Assembly: GCA_013297725.1 (NCBI GenBank)
Contig: JAAFIB010000001.1
Coordinates: 124,001 to 188,000, forward strand
DNA length: 64,000 nt
Reading direction: 5' to 3'
Origin: Sphingomonadales bacterium
Lineage (GTDB): Bacteria > Pseudomonadota > Alphaproteobacteria > Sphingomonadales > Sphingomonadaceae
The notes under the pieces were generated by a model. That model did no database searches, was not told the origin of the DNA, and was given only the letters and a program-made list of their open reading frames with translations. Both the position numbers and the translations under genes were made by a program. Positions 1,752 to 43,822 of this stretch are shown in pieces (the stretch's first letter is position 1; every line of letters begins with the position of its first letter).

Positions 1752-4700
1752 ATGAAAAAGGCAACCGGAGACAATAGGTCTGCGTCGAATCTACGTAATC
1801 TCCGCCATGGCGCGTCCGTGCTGGCGCTGTGTTCGCTTATAGTGGCGGCGCCTGCGTTGGCTCAGGATGAAAATGCCGCTACCGAAGATTCGACCCAATC
1901 ATCGGAAGAGCAGATTATCGTTACAGGCTTTAAAGGCAGCCTGCAGAGCGCTCAGGCAATTAAGCGTAAATCAGATGTGATCGTCGATTCGGTATCGGCT
2001 GAAGATATCGGTGCATTACCTGATCGTTCCGTCACTGAAACATTGCAGCGTATTCCCGGCGTGTCGATTGACCGTTTTGCGGCGGGGGCGGATCCCGATC
2101 ACTTTTCTGTCGAAGGTAGCGGTGTTACGATTCGCGGCCTTTCCTATGTGCGGTCAGAAATTAACGGCCGCGAAGCATTCACCGTCAATAACGGCCGTGG
2201 GCTAAGTTTTGCTGACGTTCCCGCAGAGCTGTTGTACGGCGTTGATGTTTTCAAAAGCCCGTCATCGGATCGCATCGAGGGCGGTATTTCCGGCGTCGTA
2301 AATCTTCGCACGCGACGTCCATTCGATTCAAGCGGGCTGGTGATCAGCGGATCGCTGGAAAACACCTACAGTGATTTTGCAAAGAAATCGGCACCAACAT
2401 TTTCGGCTTTGATCAGCGACCGTTGGGAAACCGGCATCGGTGACATCGGCATATTGGTAAGTGCCGTCTCATCGCAGCTTCGCAGCCGTGCAGACAAGCT
2501 GCAAGTTGCCGGTTTTCTGCCACGTACGCGCTATGCAAATGGCAACGTGATTTCATCGCCATCGACAGCGGAGGGTGCGCCAGTCAGTGCAGCTGTTGGG
2601 CAAGTTTATTTCCCATCAGGCGGCGGTTTTGGCACGCAGGAATATAACCGCAAGCGTTATGGTTTTTCAGGGGCGCTGCAATGGCGCAGTAACGATGGGG
2701 CGATCGAAGCTATTGTTCAATATCTTCGTTCGGACTCGCGTGAAAACACTCTTGAAAATGCTGTAGACATTGATGCCAATGGCACGAACGATGCTAGTCG
2801 CCCTTGGTGCAATGCTGGGTCGCTGCAAGTTCAGAGTGGCGATGCCGGACCTTGCGTTGCCGGACCTCGGGCTGTTCCTGGCACGACATTATCCTTTGGT
2901 GATGATGGCATTTTTACCAACGGCACAATTACTGCGCCAACGGGATGGCGGTCAGATCAATTTAGCAACGGCTTTGGACCCGGTGGACGCACACCGACCT
3001 TTGGTTTGCAAAGCAATAACATCTCCAGAGCTGAGCGTGATCGCTATATCACAACAGATATTAGCGCCAATGTACGGTGGAATATCTCCGATGCTTTAAG
3101 TGCCAGCTTTGATTATCAGCATGTTACATCATCCGTAGACGCGTTCAGCGCCGGTTTGTGGACCGCAAGCTATCAGGATGCTGTAATCAACATGAATGAT
3201 GGCGGGATTCCAACCGTTTCGTTTATTCAGCCTCAGGCATGTTCGGCAACATTTGCGAGCAATCCCACCGCGTGTAATTCGCCATTTGCAGGCGGTTTTA
3301 TCACGCCGCGACACAGCTATTTTACGACCGGAGAGCAAAGCTATCTCAATCCGGCCAATTCTTATTACTACGCCGCAATGGATCATGCGGAACAAAATGA
3401 TGGTAAGAGTGATACCGGTCGCATAGATTTTTCATATGAATTGCCAGAAAATAATTGGATCAAAGGAATAGAATTCGGCGGGAAATACTCGGAACGTGAC
3501 CAGACAGCTCGTTTTTCGATATACAACTGGGGCGCGCTGAGCCAGCAATGGGGTAACGGTGGGCCTATTTGGCTGGACAACCCGAATATTCAGCATCAGA
3601 TCACTGGCAACACCTTCACGAACTTCTTTGATGGTCAAGCTCAGCAACCATCTCCAGGGCGCCTATTCTATTCCGGAAACGGTGCGAACGATTACGCAGG
3701 GTACACAGCTTTTGCGACATCAGTCGTTAATGCTTGGGTCACACAGGGCGGCGGTACCGCCGGCAGCCAAACAGGTGGTGGTTCTGGATGGGTACCGCTT
3801 GGACGGCGGCCTGATGCTATTGCGGGTAGCTTCTTCGACCCGACAGAAATCAATCCGCTGAACGAAAAAAACAAAGCAGCGTATCTGCTAGCAAAGATCG
3901 ACCATAAATTTGAAAACGGTTGGGCGCTGACAGGTAGCTTTGGTTTACGATATACAAGCACCAATCGTTCTTCTTTTGGTAGCTTCAAAACGCCTTTGGC
4001 TCCGGCAGATTCCTTGGTTGCCGGTCCTCAATCGCCAATTATACCATCAACATATCAGTGTACGCCACGGACCGACATTATTAATGGCGTTCCAACTCCG
4101 GTCATTCCGCCCCCAATCTGCGGTACGACAACGGCTGCGCAAAGAGCGGATGTCAGGCGGTTTTACAACGGTGTAGAGACACAGATCGTGTCAAAACTGA
4201 ACTACGACTACATTCTTCCGTCACTCAACTTGCGGCTTGATACCGGCGATGGTCTGCAATTCCGTGTCGCCTATTCAAAAGGTATCGCACCGCCTGATTT
4301 CGGCTACGTCAGGAACAGCTTCCGTCCGCAAGCCAGAACAACTGCATCATTCCCGGAATTGTTCCCCGGACCTGAACAGCCCATTGTTTATGTTGAGGCG
4401 GGTAACGCGCAGCTGAAACCGGTTACGTCGAACAATTTCGACTTCTCGGCCGAATGGTACTTTAACAACAGCATCGGTCGCTTGACATTTGCTGCATTCT
4501 ATAAAGAAATTAAGGGTGTTAATATCCCGGGCTTTTTCCCGACAACACTTACCAACAACGGGGTTACGCTTCCTGCGGTCCTACGGACAGCAGTTAACTC
4601 GCCATCGACAGGTAAGATTAAGGGCGTAGAGCTGGGTTATGAGCAAACCTATGACTTCCTACCTGGATTTTTGAGCGGTCTCGGCCTGTCTGCAAACCTT

Positions 4701-5156
4701 ACCTTCCTTGATCAAGGTAGCATTGCGCAGGGTTCCCTCTCACAGGCATATCCAAACCTTGCATCCGCAGGCAATTCGGCGAATGCGACAGCTACCGATA
4801 TTTCGAAGCTGCCATTGACCGGCCTGTCAAAATGGAATGTCAACATCGCGCCTTATTATCAAAAAGGTCCGCTGGAGCTTCGTTTGGGCTATAACTGGCG
4901 GTCGAGGTTCCTGCTGACTGTGCAGGATGTGATTTATCCGTATCAACCGACGTATAATAATGCAGCGGGATATCTTGATGGGTCGATCTCGGTTGCTGTT
5001 AACAAAAATCTAAAGCTTGGACTCCAGGCGACCAACATTCTCGATACGATTACCAAAACCTCGGCGGTGATCGATCGGGATGCGACGCTTACGGTTCCGC
5101 GCAGCTACTTCAAAAACGATCGGACATTCAAAATCTTCGCACGTTTGAACTGGTAG
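1752..5156 (+). CDS. TonB-dependent outer-membrane receptor (TIGR01782-like)
   Basis: 1134 aa. The start has a good ribosome-binding site (AGGGAGGG, 1739-1747). Residues 1-38 form a signal peptide ending APALAQ. A TonB box (EQIIVTG) follows, then a plug domain with SVSAEDIGALPDRSVTETLQRIPGV and a long beta-barrel ending in RLNW, with the final aromatic expected for outer-membrane insertion. The family imports oligosaccharides and other large nutrients across the outer membrane using TonB-ExbBD energy. Halogenase, DUF6445 and xylan-degrading neighbours point to plant-polysaccharide oligomers; the actual ligand is unknown. Expression is probably controlled by the two palindromes upstream, and a hairpin terminator follows. 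Confidence 0.9.
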   Translation: MKKATGDNRSASNLRNLRHGASVLALCSLIVAAPALAQDENAATEDSTQSSEEQIIVTGFKGSLQSAQAIKRKSDVIVDSVSAEDIGALPDRSVTETLQRIPGVSIDRFAAGADPDHFSVEGSGVTIRGLSYVRSEINGREAFTVNNGRGLSFADVPAELLYGVDVFKSPSSDRIEGGISGVVNLRTRRPFDSSGLVISGSLENTYSDFAKKSAPTFSALISDRWETGIGDIGILVSAVSSQLRSRADKLQVAGFLPRTRYANGNVISSPSTAEGAPVSAAVGQVYFPSGGGFGTQEYNRKRYGFSGALQWRSNDGAIEAIVQYLRSDSRENTLENAVDIDANGTNDASRPWCNAGSLQVQSGDAGPCVAGPRAVPGTTLSFGDDGIFTNGTITAPTGWRSDQFSNGFGPGGRTPTFGLQSNNISRAERDRYITTDISANVRWNISDALSASFDYQHVTSSVDAFSAGLWTASYQDAVINMNDGGIPTVSFIQPQACSATFASNPTACNSPFAGGFITPRHSYFTTGEQSYLNPANSYYYAAMDHAEQNDGKSDTGRIDFSYELPENNWIKGIEFGGKYSERDQTARFSIYNWGALSQQWGNGGPIWLDNPNIQHQITGNTFTNFFDGQAQQPSPGRLFYSGNGANDYAGYTAFATSVVNAWVTQGGGTAGSQTGGGSGWVPLGRRPDAIAGSFFDPTEINPLNEKNKAAYLLAKIDHKFENGWALTGSFGLRYTSTNRSSFGSFKTPLAPADSLVAGPQSPIIPSTYQCTPRTDIINGVPTPVIPPPICGTTTAAQRADVRRFYNGVETQIVSKLNYDYILPSLNLRLDTGDGLQFRVAYSKGIAPPDFGYVRNSFRPQARTTASFPELFPGPEQPIVYVEAGNAQLKPVTSNNFDFSAEWYFNNSIGRLTFAAFYKEIKGVNIPGFFPTTLTNNGVTLPAVLRTAVNSPSTGKIKGVELGYEQTYDFLPGFLSGLGLSANLTFLDQGSIAQGSLSQAYPNLASAGNSANATATDISKLPLTGLSKWNVNIAPYYQKGPLELRLGYNWRSRFLLTVQDVIYPYQPTYNNAAGYLDGSISVAVNKNLKLGLQATNILDTITKTSAVIDRDATLTVPRSYFKNDRTFKIFARLNW

Positions 5157-5184
5157 TTTCTGAATAAAGTCTTCTACTCCCCTA

Positions 5185-5214
5185 GGGTGCCGAGTAACAC
5201 CGGCACCCTTTTTT
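5185..5214 (+). terminator. Rho-independent terminator of the first TonB receptor gene
   Basis: GGGTGCCG, a loop of about 8 nt, then CGGCACCC followed at once by TTTTTT, 28 bp after the receptor stop codon. Confidence 0.85.
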
Positions 5215-39071: not shown

Positions 39072-41689
<2,618 letters not shown>

Positions 41690-41718
41690 TTGAGGCGTTT
41701 GGTGAGCCTAATTCGTTA

Positions 41719-41761
41719 TGCCATATTTTGGTTTGTAAGAAAAAAGACAAATAAGAAAAAA
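41719..41761 (+). repeat. Left inverted repeat of the GxxExxY cassette
   Basis: 43 bp, starting TGCCATATTTTGGTTTG and continuing as an A-rich tract. It pairs with 42176-42218 with five mismatches. It ends 10 bp before the GxxExxY start codon, so it would also form the 5' leader of that mRNA. Confidence 0.8.
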
Positions 41762-41771
41762 GGTAGGAAAT

Positions 41772-42170
41772 ATGGTTCATTCTGAACACGAGCGGTTGTT
41801 CAAAGTCGTTTTCGCCATGGGGCTTCAATTGCATAAAGAGCTTGGGCCTGGCTTGATGGAGTCAGTGTATGAGACTGTTCTGGCAAGCCGACTGGAGCGG
41901 GCTGGTTATAAAATTGACCGGCAAATGCCGGTCAGTATTGTCATCGATGGAATATCATTTCCCGACGCGTATCGCGTTGATCTGTTCGTCAATAAATTAC
42001 TGGCGGTCGAACTAAAGTCCTTGGACAAGCTGACAAGCCTGCATCACCGCCAAGCACTAACCTATGTTCGGTTGCTCAACCAACCTCCCGGTATCCTGAT
42101 GAACTTCGGTGGCGAAATGCTAAGCGAAGGAACGAGAAGGGTCATGAACAACGAATACGGGAAACACTAA
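41772..42170 (+). CDS. GxxExxY family protein (PD-(D/E)xK nuclease-like)
   Basis: 132 aa, normal for the family. The naming motif is seen as GLMESVY (GxxExxY) within LGPGLMESVYETVL near 24-37. A PD-(D/E)xK-type core follows: RVDLFVNKLLAVELK, with D, E and K in the expected order. The residues for metal-dependent DNA or RNA cleavage look intact, but no activity is known for the family. Ribosome-binding site AGGTAGGAA precedes the ATG. Neighbours are gyrB (divergent) and an acyl-CoA ligase. AT-rich flanks and inverted repeats mark it as acquired. Confidence 0.88.
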   Translation: MVHSEHERLFKVVFAMGLQLHKELGPGLMESVYETVLASRLERAGYKIDRQMPVSIVIDGISFPDAYRVDLFVNKLLAVELKSLDKLTSLHHRQALTYVRLLNQPPGILMNFGGEMLSEGTRRVMNNEYGKH

Positions 42171-42175
42171 TCAAC

Positions 42176-42218
42176 TTATTTCTTATTTCCCTTTTTTCTT
42201 TCAAACCAAAATCTGGCA
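42176..42218 (-). repeat. Right inverted repeat of the GxxExxY cassette
   Basis: 43 bp. Its reverse complement starts TGCCAGATTTTGGTTTG and matches the left repeat at 38 of 43 positions. It begins 5 bp after the GxxExxY stop codon and, with the left copy, could also fold the transcript into a long stem. Confidence 0.8.
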
Positions 42219-42253
42219 CGACGTTACCAAACAATCTGATCAAGAGTGATGCT

Positions 42254-43822
42254 ATGTCCATCGATCCAAACACTGAACTCGAACAACCCTATGGCGACTA
42301 TACCGCCTTGATCGCGGCATGGGGCCACGAACGGCCTGATCGGGTGGCATTGGACGACGGAGTTGAAAGCCTGAACTGGGCGCAGGTTGCGGCGCTTGTG
42401 GAGCGCATTGCCGCACAGTTGCAGCGCGATGGCCTTAAAAAAGGGCAGGCGGTGGCGATCCTTGGGACGAGCAGCGTCCGTTATGCGCTCGCCTATCTGG
42501 GTGCGATCCGCGCGGGCGGCTGTGCGGCTCCGCTGACGACCTCGGCGACCCCTGCGCAATTGGAGGCGATGCTACACGACTCAGGGGCAATGCATTTGTT
42601 TATTGATGCGGCAAAGCTGGCGGACCTTTCTGGCCGCGACTTGCCCATAACCAAAACGATCATGCTTGATACGCCGCTTAGTGAAAATCCCGATATGGCG
42701 AGTTGGATGGCGGGGGAGGGTGCTGTTGCCGCACCGCATAATTGCGGTCCCGATGACCCGTTCAACATCATCTACTCTAGCGGCACTACCGGCACACCGA
42801 AAGGGATCATTCATTCGCGGCAGATGCGCTGGCGACATGCCACGGTCGGTGCAAACACCGGTTACGGCGCGCCGCAAGCCGCATCGCTTGCCTCAACGCC
42901 GCTTTATTCCAACACGACGCTTGCTCTGGTTATCCCAACGCTTGCTTATGGTGGCACATTGCATCTGATGCCCAAATTTGAAGCTGCTGGTTATCTCGAC
43001 CGCGCGCAAAAACACCGGATCACGCACACGATGCTGGTGCCGGTGCAATATAAACGCTTGATGGAATATGAAAAATTCGGTGAGTATGACTTGTCGAGTT
43101 TTTGGCTGAAATACTGCACCAGCGCGCCTTTTGCGCCTGCACTAAAGGCTGATGTGCTGAAACGCTGGCCCGGCGGTCTGGTCGAAATCTATTCGATGAC
43201 CGAGGGCGGCGTAGTGTGTTTGCTGCAAGCGCATGAACATCCCGACAAGCTGCATACCGTTGGCATTCCGTGGAAGGGCAGCGAGGTGTTCACTATCGAC
43301 GAGGCAGGCAACCGCTTGGCGGCGGGCGAAGTAGGCGAGCTGGTTGGCCGCTCTGCAACGATGATGTCGGGCTATCAGAACCAGCCTGATAAAACGCGCG
43401 AGGGTTATTGGTTCGATACCGATGGCAGCGTGTGGCAACGCATGGGCGACATCGGCCGTGTGGACGCCGATGGATTTGTCGAATTGCTGGGCCGGTCAAA
43501 AGACATGATCATCTCTGGCGGGTTCAACATTTATCCGGTTGATCTAGAAAGCATATTGCTCGGTTTAGCCGGAGTGGAGGAAGCTGCCGTCATCGGTATG
43601 CCATCAGATAAATGGGGCGAAACGCCGGTTGGCTTTGTTAGTGGTGCAAAGGGCGCGGTGCTGGACACCGAAGCATTGCTGGCAGCCGCCAATGCGCAGC
43701 TTGGCAAAACGCAGCGTCTGTCCGCGCTCTATGCGATTGACGAAATGCCGCGCAGCCATATCGGGAAGTTGCTGAAAACGGAGTTGCGCAATATGGCGGC
43801 TGCTTTGGAGAATGTTTCTTGA
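42254..43822 (+). CDS. AMP-dependent acyl-CoA synthetase/ligase
   Basis: 522 aa. ATP-binding loop IIYSSGTTGTPKG near 176-188, the IYSMTEGG motif near 314-321 and the YWFDTDGSVWQRMGDIG hinge motif are typical of the acyl/aryl-CoA ligase superfamily, with NIYPVDLESIL near the C-terminal hinge and a catalytic lysine in SHIGKLLK. It activates a carboxylic acid through an acyl-adenylate to the CoA thioester. The chain type (fatty or aromatic acid) is not clear. It overlaps the DUF2721 gene by 4 bp. Confidence 0.85.
   Translation: MSIDPNTELEQPYGDYTALIAAWGHERPDRVALDDGVESLNWAQVAALVERIAAQLQRDGLKKGQAVAILGTSSVRYALAYLGAIRAGGCAAPLTTSATPAQLEAMLHDSGAMHLFIDAAKLADLSGRDLPITKTIMLDTPLSENPDMASWMAGEGAVAAPHNCGPDDPFNIIYSSGTTGTPKGIIHSRQMRWRHATVGANTGYGAPQAASLASTPLYSNTTLALVIPTLAYGGTLHLMPKFEAAGYLDRAQKHRITHTMLVPVQYKRLMEYEKFGEYDLSSFWLKYCTSAPFAPALKADVLKRWPGGLVEIYSMTEGGVVCLLQAHEHPDKLHTVGIPWKGSEVFTIDEAGNRLAAGEVGELVGRSATMMSGYQNQPDKTREGYWFDTDGSVWQRMGDIGRVDADGFVELLGRSKDMIISGGFNIYPVDLESILLGLAGVEEAAVIGMPSDKWGETPVGFVSGAKGAVLDTEALLAAANAQLGKTQRLSALYAIDEMPRSHIGKLLKTELRNMAAALENVS

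Follow-up and report, generated by a model that had tools for sequence, protein, structure and literature searches.

Inverted-repeat arms accompany GxxExxY nuclease-like genes and suggest a REPIN-like repeat system in Sphingorhabdus and other bacteria

The window (the whole 64,000-nucleotide stretch of Sphingomonadales DNA analysed here) contains a short element at positions 41714-42223, in which two 49-nt arms, 86% complementary to each other, enclose a single open-reading frame at 41772-42170. The left arm ends at 41762, just ahead of the ATG at 41772, and the right arm starts at 42175, just after the stop codon that ends at 42170. The features of the locus are:

39072..41633, minus strand: left neighbour, a gyrB-like open-reading frame; host gene outside the element, anchor for site comparison
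41714..41762, plus strand: left inverted-repeat arm, type I, purine-rich, with AAGAAAAAAG-like units; its arm family recurs as gene-less pairs elsewhere in the genome
41772..42170, plus strand: GxxExxY / PDDEXK_3 gene, 132 aa, predicted Cas4/RecB-like PD-(D/E)XK nuclease
42175..42223, minus strand: right inverted-repeat arm, 86% complementary to the left arm over 49 nt
42254..43822, plus strand: right neighbour, an AMP-dependent ligase-like open-reading frame; host gene outside the element, anchor for site comparison

The names of the two neighbours come from an earlier, sequence-only reading of this DNA and from general knowledge, and are presumptive. That reading had described repeats of 43 nt (38/43 identical) hugging a GxxExxY gene that keeps its motif residues; the repeats are real and extend to 49 nt, and the GxxExxY and nuclease residues are conserved among relatives. 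The inverted-repeat score of the arms is 35, reached by none of 5000 dinucleotide shuffles (mean 10.7, maximum 21), and is the highest among the 43 non-overlapping open-reading frames of the window, the runner-up scoring 18. Folded as single-stranded DNA, the element has a z-score of -4.6, and 0 of 100 shuffles fold equally well; the window has no Rfam match at the gathering score. Its arms are a purine-rich variant of a common type of arm built from CRCRnMG units. A CGTTA repeat at the two ends, previously proposed as a decayed target duplication, is unsupported and at chance level: the left copy falls within the longer arm, and direct repeats are common in shuffled flank pairs (33% have one of 5 nt or longer, 8% one of 6 nt or longer). 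Nine elements were entered into a search for target site duplications, two of them without a usable pair, and in the remaining seven the best direct repeats were 4-6 nt, with a mean of 4.57 nt against 3.91 in shuffles.

The encoded protein is a member of its family by both curated cut-offs (102.6 bits against 35 and 22), matching PF13366 at E 2.2e-29 and TIGR04256 at E 1.7e-29; these family models cover the protein alone, without inverted repeats. Residues G25, G27, E30, Y33, D70, E80, K82 and Q94 are invariant both in 14 and in 51 aligned sequences, and H21, H91 and Y98 are invariant in the 14 and conserved in at least 90% of the 51. An AlphaFold2 model of the protein (mean pLDDT 91.9) was compared with the PDB using Foldseek, which ranked the Cas4 structures 4ic1 (SSO0001) and 4r5q (Pcal_0546) highest (probability 0.99-1.00, best E 1.6e-3), followed at lower rank by AdnAB, alkaline exonuclease and lambda exonuclease; no PDB match to the model fell below E 0.001, and no PDB sequence homologue was found at E 1. 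Among predicted viral protein structures the best match was G8DDC4 (4.2e-9), then R4TGU4 (3.1e-7), the PD-(D/E)XK nuclease of Halogranum tailed virus 1. The model therefore predicts a Cas4/RecB-like PD-(D/E)XK fold, and GxxExxY proteins presumably act as nucleases. The protein resembles Cas4/RecB-type exonucleases (4ic1, 4r5q, AdnAB, lambda exonuclease) in its predicted fold and in its D, ExK and Q(x3)Y residues, which we take to be the RecB/Cas4 motifs, but differs from them in being a single 132-aa domain with no iron-sulphur cluster and no helicase or cas gene within the unit. Its translation contains no cysteine, and a Cas4-type iron-sulphur cluster is therefore absent.

We took the genus of the source to be Sphingorhabdus and compared 41 genomes of it. 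The source genome carries four GxxExxY genes, and a match was present in 16 of the 61 genomes searched, the source included. From 36 genus matches listed, four fragments were set aside and the 32 full-length copies were tested for arms, which at a score of at least 18 flank 29 of them (27 of 30, plus two of two further copies). The three copies that lack arms by this test, L002, L013 and L017, score 12, 13 and 8; at L013 a match lies further downstream in a wider window (score 28). Within a copy the two arms match, and from copy to copy the arms differ.

The same arms also occur without the gene. BLAST and pattern searches of the source genome recovered facing pairs of the window arm family that enclose no gene and whose cores lie ~120 nt apart. 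At least five matches to the type I pattern are found in six of the 41 genus genomes (G000, G002, G016, G019, G022 and G032), all of them among the seven that have the gene or clear arms at the gyrB-ligase site; the seventh, G026, has the gene there and two pattern matches. The commonest type I core is GGTT in G000, CGTT in G002 and CGTC in G022, G032 and G016. A second arm type, made of CRCRnMG units, is present in 40 of the 41 genomes with 1 to 70 matches each (0 to 6 for the reversed control), occurs also as tandem arrays, and at one locus (L113) is nested inside a type I pair. Genus genomes thus contain dispersed inverted doublets with conserved ends and a variable spacer, and by our reading the hairpins at two corresponding sites (L268 and L285) have similar arms and diverged loops. 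When 20 gene-less loci were searched against Rfam, tmRNA alone passed the gathering score, and the rest were sub-threshold microRNA-like hairpins. The earlier proposal that the repeats belong with the gene is thereby borne out, with the same arm family standing free of it in its own and in related genomes; GxxExxY genes elsewhere also carry inverted repeats, and the outcome which that reading had named as counting against it did not occur.

Loci beyond the genus were collected by scanning contigs with a GxxExxY alignment, and the best 80 of 566 confirmed loci were used. By record title these come from sphingomonads, Verrucomicrobiota, Desulfobacterota, Chloroflexota, Bacteroidota, Planctomycetota, a cyanobacterium and others; L185, titled Arthrobacter, is counted with the sphingomonads, and at least four loci (L192, L194, L226, L228) are counted in the genus set too. 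Arms scoring at least 18 flank 64 of these best 80 loci and 13 of 194 control open-reading frames, and arms scoring at least 22 flank 57 of the 80 and three of the 194, the controls being mechanical open-reading frames of the same loci rather than annotated genes. For these counts the right-hand search window began where the conserved domain ends, a shift made after the data had shown right arms running into the 3' coding end; the earlier setting gave 58/80 (best 80 of 566) and 19/189. In a proteobacterial family, f35, arms reach 18 in 20 of 30 loci and 22 in 17 of 30, against 0 of 18 controls (an earlier, cruder arm test gave 13/28, two loci being untestable). Arms are missing by the test in 16 of the best 80 loci, in 10 of the 30 in f35 and in three of the 32 genus copies. 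CRCRnMG units, mostly 8-9 nt apart, are found in the arms of 60 of the 64 arm-bearing loci among the best 80, with upstream spacings of 8 nt in 76 instances and 9 nt in 12, compared with 14 and 0 in reversed sequence; the units have the same orientation to the gene in 54 of the 64 loci, the opposite in six, and are undecided in four. Two open-reading frames near a GxxExxY gene, which we take to be HsdS-like, are flanked by the same CRCRnMG units (L201:1283-2639 and L213:645-1801), and both were kept within the 13 control positives.

The matching of arms within a copy could be measured at a location shared by many loci. In 17 of 28 sphingomonad-labelled loci (L185-L205 region) the GxxExxY gene lies between fabD and fabG, names which follow the annotation of one plasmid record, and this location is probably old. 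All 17 have arms (scores 21 to 31), and taken together the arms match their own partners better than swapped ones (26.65 against 19.40, 0 of 20000 permutations as high); across the best 80 of 566 loci the values are 22.69 and 12.53 (0/20000). With the earlier search window, which truncated the right arm, the fabD-fabG site gave no significant effect (16 loci, 1264/20000). Between L014 and L022 the difference is a single 8-nt unit, confined to one of the arms, which shows that arm change can proceed by whole units; this pair had been considered as a recent jump and was rejected, both being one fabD...fabG region. In a search of plasmids seven records had a GxxExxY match, and the one inspected carries the fabD-fabG arrangement on an 880-kb replicon, with rpsF on the same replicon. 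Carriage by phages was rejected, with matches in 0 of 50,697 phage records. Transition mismatches between paired arms are divided almost equally between wobble-compatible and incompatible ones, with 142 against 147 in the 64 arm-bearing loci (of the best 80 of 566) and 32 against 38 in the genus. This absence of a wobble bias argues against selection on an RNA stem in the sense transcript and leaves recognition at the DNA level or templated correction; arm pairing thus looks, from these alignments, to be at the DNA level, and RNA-level pairing was rejected as the main force. Generic palindrome correction during replication could also match arms.

We compared individual sites to determine whether gene or arms move. 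At the gyrB-ligase site, where 11 sequences were aligned and the site is incomplete in G021 and G030, the gene is present in at least four of the 41 genus genomes (G000, G002, G022 and G026), whereas G016, G019 and G032 have arms without the gene (inverted-repeat scores 53, 23 and 56), the inverted repeat of G031 is borderline (18 against a shuffle maximum of 16), and G033, G009 and G008 (locus L045) have none above shuffles. The comparison of sister strains proposed earlier therefore yielded arm-only and repeat-less versions of the site, but the exact ends of the insertion are obscured because the flanks are too diverged. Another site, which we take to be proS-rnr-like, is cleaner: in G014 and G024 the gene and its arms occupy the space from a stop codon to the following ATG, and G008 and G063, whose flanks are 91-94% identical to those of G014, have 3 nt there. 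A tree of flanks from 26 genomes places four gene-bearing tips in three places, together with two arms-only tips, two with other inserts and 18 without the element; support is weak at some of the nodes close to the tips with the gene. At a site presumed to be ruvC-ruvA-like, a gene-less pair is found in filled, collapsed and empty versions, with the direction of change not given. None of the sites compared captured a recent jump with exact ends.

Gene identity between genomes is close to flank identity, at 0.945 and 0.932 respectively for G014 and G024, and 0.784 and 0.774 for G014 and G032; the gene of G027 is more diverged than its flanks (0.702 against 0.793, to G014). Because gene and flanks have diverged alike where this could be tested, the gene looks like a long-lived resident that is mostly vertically inherited. 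Non-synonymous divergence is far below synonymous divergence (dN 0.033 against dS 0.146, and 0.101 against 1.297), and the gene looks to be under purifying selection. The pattern fits an old resident gene which has been repeatedly and cleanly lost, though repeated gain at one site might produce it as well. The sequence-only reading had the 500-bp unit itself as mobile, and for this we found no evidence, given the shared gyrB-side site in at least four of 41 genomes and the similar divergence of gene and flanks; it is the arm pair that appears to spread. The protein may cut or protect the repeats, as that reading also suggested.

Arm and gene counts were made in 299 genomes, of which the 74 in f35 were used for correlation, because elsewhere the reversed control pattern was often as frequent. 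In the 45 gene-bearing f35 genomes (G285 and G339 counted from fragments) there are 510 arm matches (control 11), and in the 29 without the gene 52 (control 3), medians of 6 and 0 (p 1.6e-5); with two arms discounted for every gene, they become 3 and 0 (p 0.0099). Arm matches rise with the number of GxxExxY genes (rho 0.54, p 7e-7) and are uncorrelated with Y1_Tnp count (rho 0.07, p 0.58), none of these p-values being corrected for phylogeny. The difference is weaker in the genus, where the medians are 10.5 and 3 (p 0.028, likewise uncorrected) in the 37 of 41 genomes searched for both gene and arms. Some genomes have many arms and no GxxExxY match: G007 (39), G021 (23), G035 (21), G028 (18) and G033 (17) in the genus, G172 in f35 (14), and outside f35 G101, with 34 matches to a three-unit arm pattern against 0 for the control and no GxxExxY at E 1e-10. 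PF01797 (Y1_Tnp) has no match at E 1e-5 in any of six arm-bearing genus genomes with 21 to 70 arm matches, and a RAYT was accordingly rejected as the mover in the genus.

The closest parallel is with REPINs and RAYTs (the REPtron, with TnpA-REP, an HUH Y1 transposase). As the consulted portion of PMC3116915 describes them, these too are scattered inverted doublets, conserved in their arms and variable in their spacers, served by a dedicated enzyme gene that is flanked by the same repeats and is largely congruent with the species tree. Here, in contrast, the enzyme is predicted to be PD-(D/E)XK and Cas4/RecB-like (PF13366) rather than HUH, the arms are longer and consist of 8-9 nt units in tandem, and Y1_Tnp was not found in the six genus genomes. 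Since architecture and evolution match REPIN/RAYT, and the HUH enzyme is missing in the genus as tested, our best reading is a two-part system of that kind in which a PD-(D/E)XK nuclease replaces the HUH enzyme, to which we give a probability of roughly 0.55. One part would be a hairpin-forming arm pair of short purine-rich units (mostly CRCRnMG every 8-9 nt, AAGAAAAAAG-like in the window), the other the small Cas4/RecB-like nuclease GxxExxY, encoded between one such pair. The arms may form hairpins or cruciforms in DNA, which the nuclease would recognise and process; repair or template switching would then keep the arms matched, and the same repair would occasionally copy an arm pair to a new intergenic site, whilst the gene copy itself would be long-lived and rarely mobile. 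Comparison across genomes shows the association of gene and arms in many phyla, the apparent pairing of the arms at the DNA level and their dispersal; we infer that the nuclease recognises, cuts and copies the arms and that arm pairs transpose. The wider formulation, a bacteria-wide class of repeat dissemination in which a Cas4/RecB-type nuclease recognises hairpins of 8-9 nt units, arms are matched by cutting and templated repair, and gene-less hairpins are seeded in trans, is tentative, and we think it rather more doubtful than sound.

Several other explanations fit part of these data. The arms could be ordinary REP-like repeats moved by a RAYT/HUH enzyme or an insertion sequence, with the GxxExxY genes as passengers, an architecture shared by the REPINs and RAYTs treated in the consulted portions of PMC3116915 and PMC8266576, and arms do persist in genomes without GxxExxY; we consider this unlikely, since the six genus genomes have no Y1_Tnp at E 1e-5, arm matches in f35 do not track the counts of Y1_Tnp, the sole transposase family searched, and one unit grammar is common to GxxExxY genes across phyla. 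Quite unlikely is an RNA element, an autoregulatory or intervening-sequence-like stem formed by the arms in the transcript and acted on by the protein or a host RNase. The arms abut the start and stop codons, which would close the mRNA into a loop, and 23S rRNA intervening sequences with an S23 open-reading frame likewise hold a small open-reading frame in an element in a stem, according to the part of PMC4990558 consulted; against this, the present elements lie outside rRNA, encode a different protein family, show no G-U-compatible excess (142 vs 147 in 64 loci, 32 vs 38 in the genus), and have no Rfam gathering-score match in the window and only tmRNA among the 20 gene-less loci.

Inverted ends hugging a single nuclease gene, together with presence/absence polymorphism and clean empty sites, would also suit a classical small transposon with terminal inverted repeats, cut and pasted by its own nuclease, and MITEs and terminal-inverted-repeat transposons share with the present elements the gene-less short versions with matching inverted ends and the clean empty site (here the proS-rnr-like one). 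This is nonetheless improbable: there is no target duplication, interiors are often unrelated, arms vary between copies rather than being uniform, 17 loci are resident at a common fabD-fabG site, and gene divergence tracks flank divergence in most pairs. Very improbable, finally, is that the arm pair is retained to serve the host (as a terminator or in chromosome organisation) or as a protective or addictive nuclease target, its mobility being incidental. Orthologous hairpins that keep their arms whilst the loop diverges (our reading of L268/L285), the housekeeping genes beside several sites and the purifying selection on the gene all speak for such a role, but presence is patchy within one genus at each site examined, and nested and tandem copies occur.

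The REPIN/RAYT-like reading would, if true, mean that HUH enzymes are not the only class around which REPIN-like repeat systems have arisen. Both CRCRnMG hairpin repeats and the GxxExxY family occur widely in the genomes examined, an explanation of neither was found in the literature searched, and linking them names a candidate enzyme for the repeats and a candidate substrate for the enzyme. A literature search, with most subscription journals outside it, found no paper linking the GxxExxY/PDDEXK_3 family to repeats; in the portions consulted, PMC8934634 has GxxExxY only as a neighbouring domain, PMC12085832 and PMC9756366 contain 'GxxExxY' or PF13366, PMC3116915 and PMC8266576 concern REPINs and RAYTs, PMC3733652 GTAG and CGTC repeats, and PMC4666352 triplex repeats. 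The genome comparisons suggest a little-noticed, self-spreading repeat system.

Arm pairs are also found in a variety of settings and larger arrangements. A gene-less pair lies ~70-85 nt downstream of the tmRNA gene at L107:1-540 (G000:C92). L071 and L106 (G000:C83 and C68) are arm pairs in opposite orientation whose flanks resemble each other on either side and include a GAATTCTGGGG-type repeat, which suggests a duplicated composite repeat. At L114-L120 and L104 (G022 and G032) a larger dispersed repeat, with similar outer sequence on both sides, has the type I arm pair at its core. Directly after the GxxExxY gene of L301 (G027:C13:20049-20806) stand three more arm pairs in a tandem array with a 246-bp period, and the same genome has other tandem arrays at C1 ~149923-150604 (218 bp) and C24 ~4470-5189 (175 bp). 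Inside-out palindromes, in which the units point apart across 7-9 nt, are present at G063:C17:25682-25730, G006:C19:35886-35932 and G008:C1:456449-456497.
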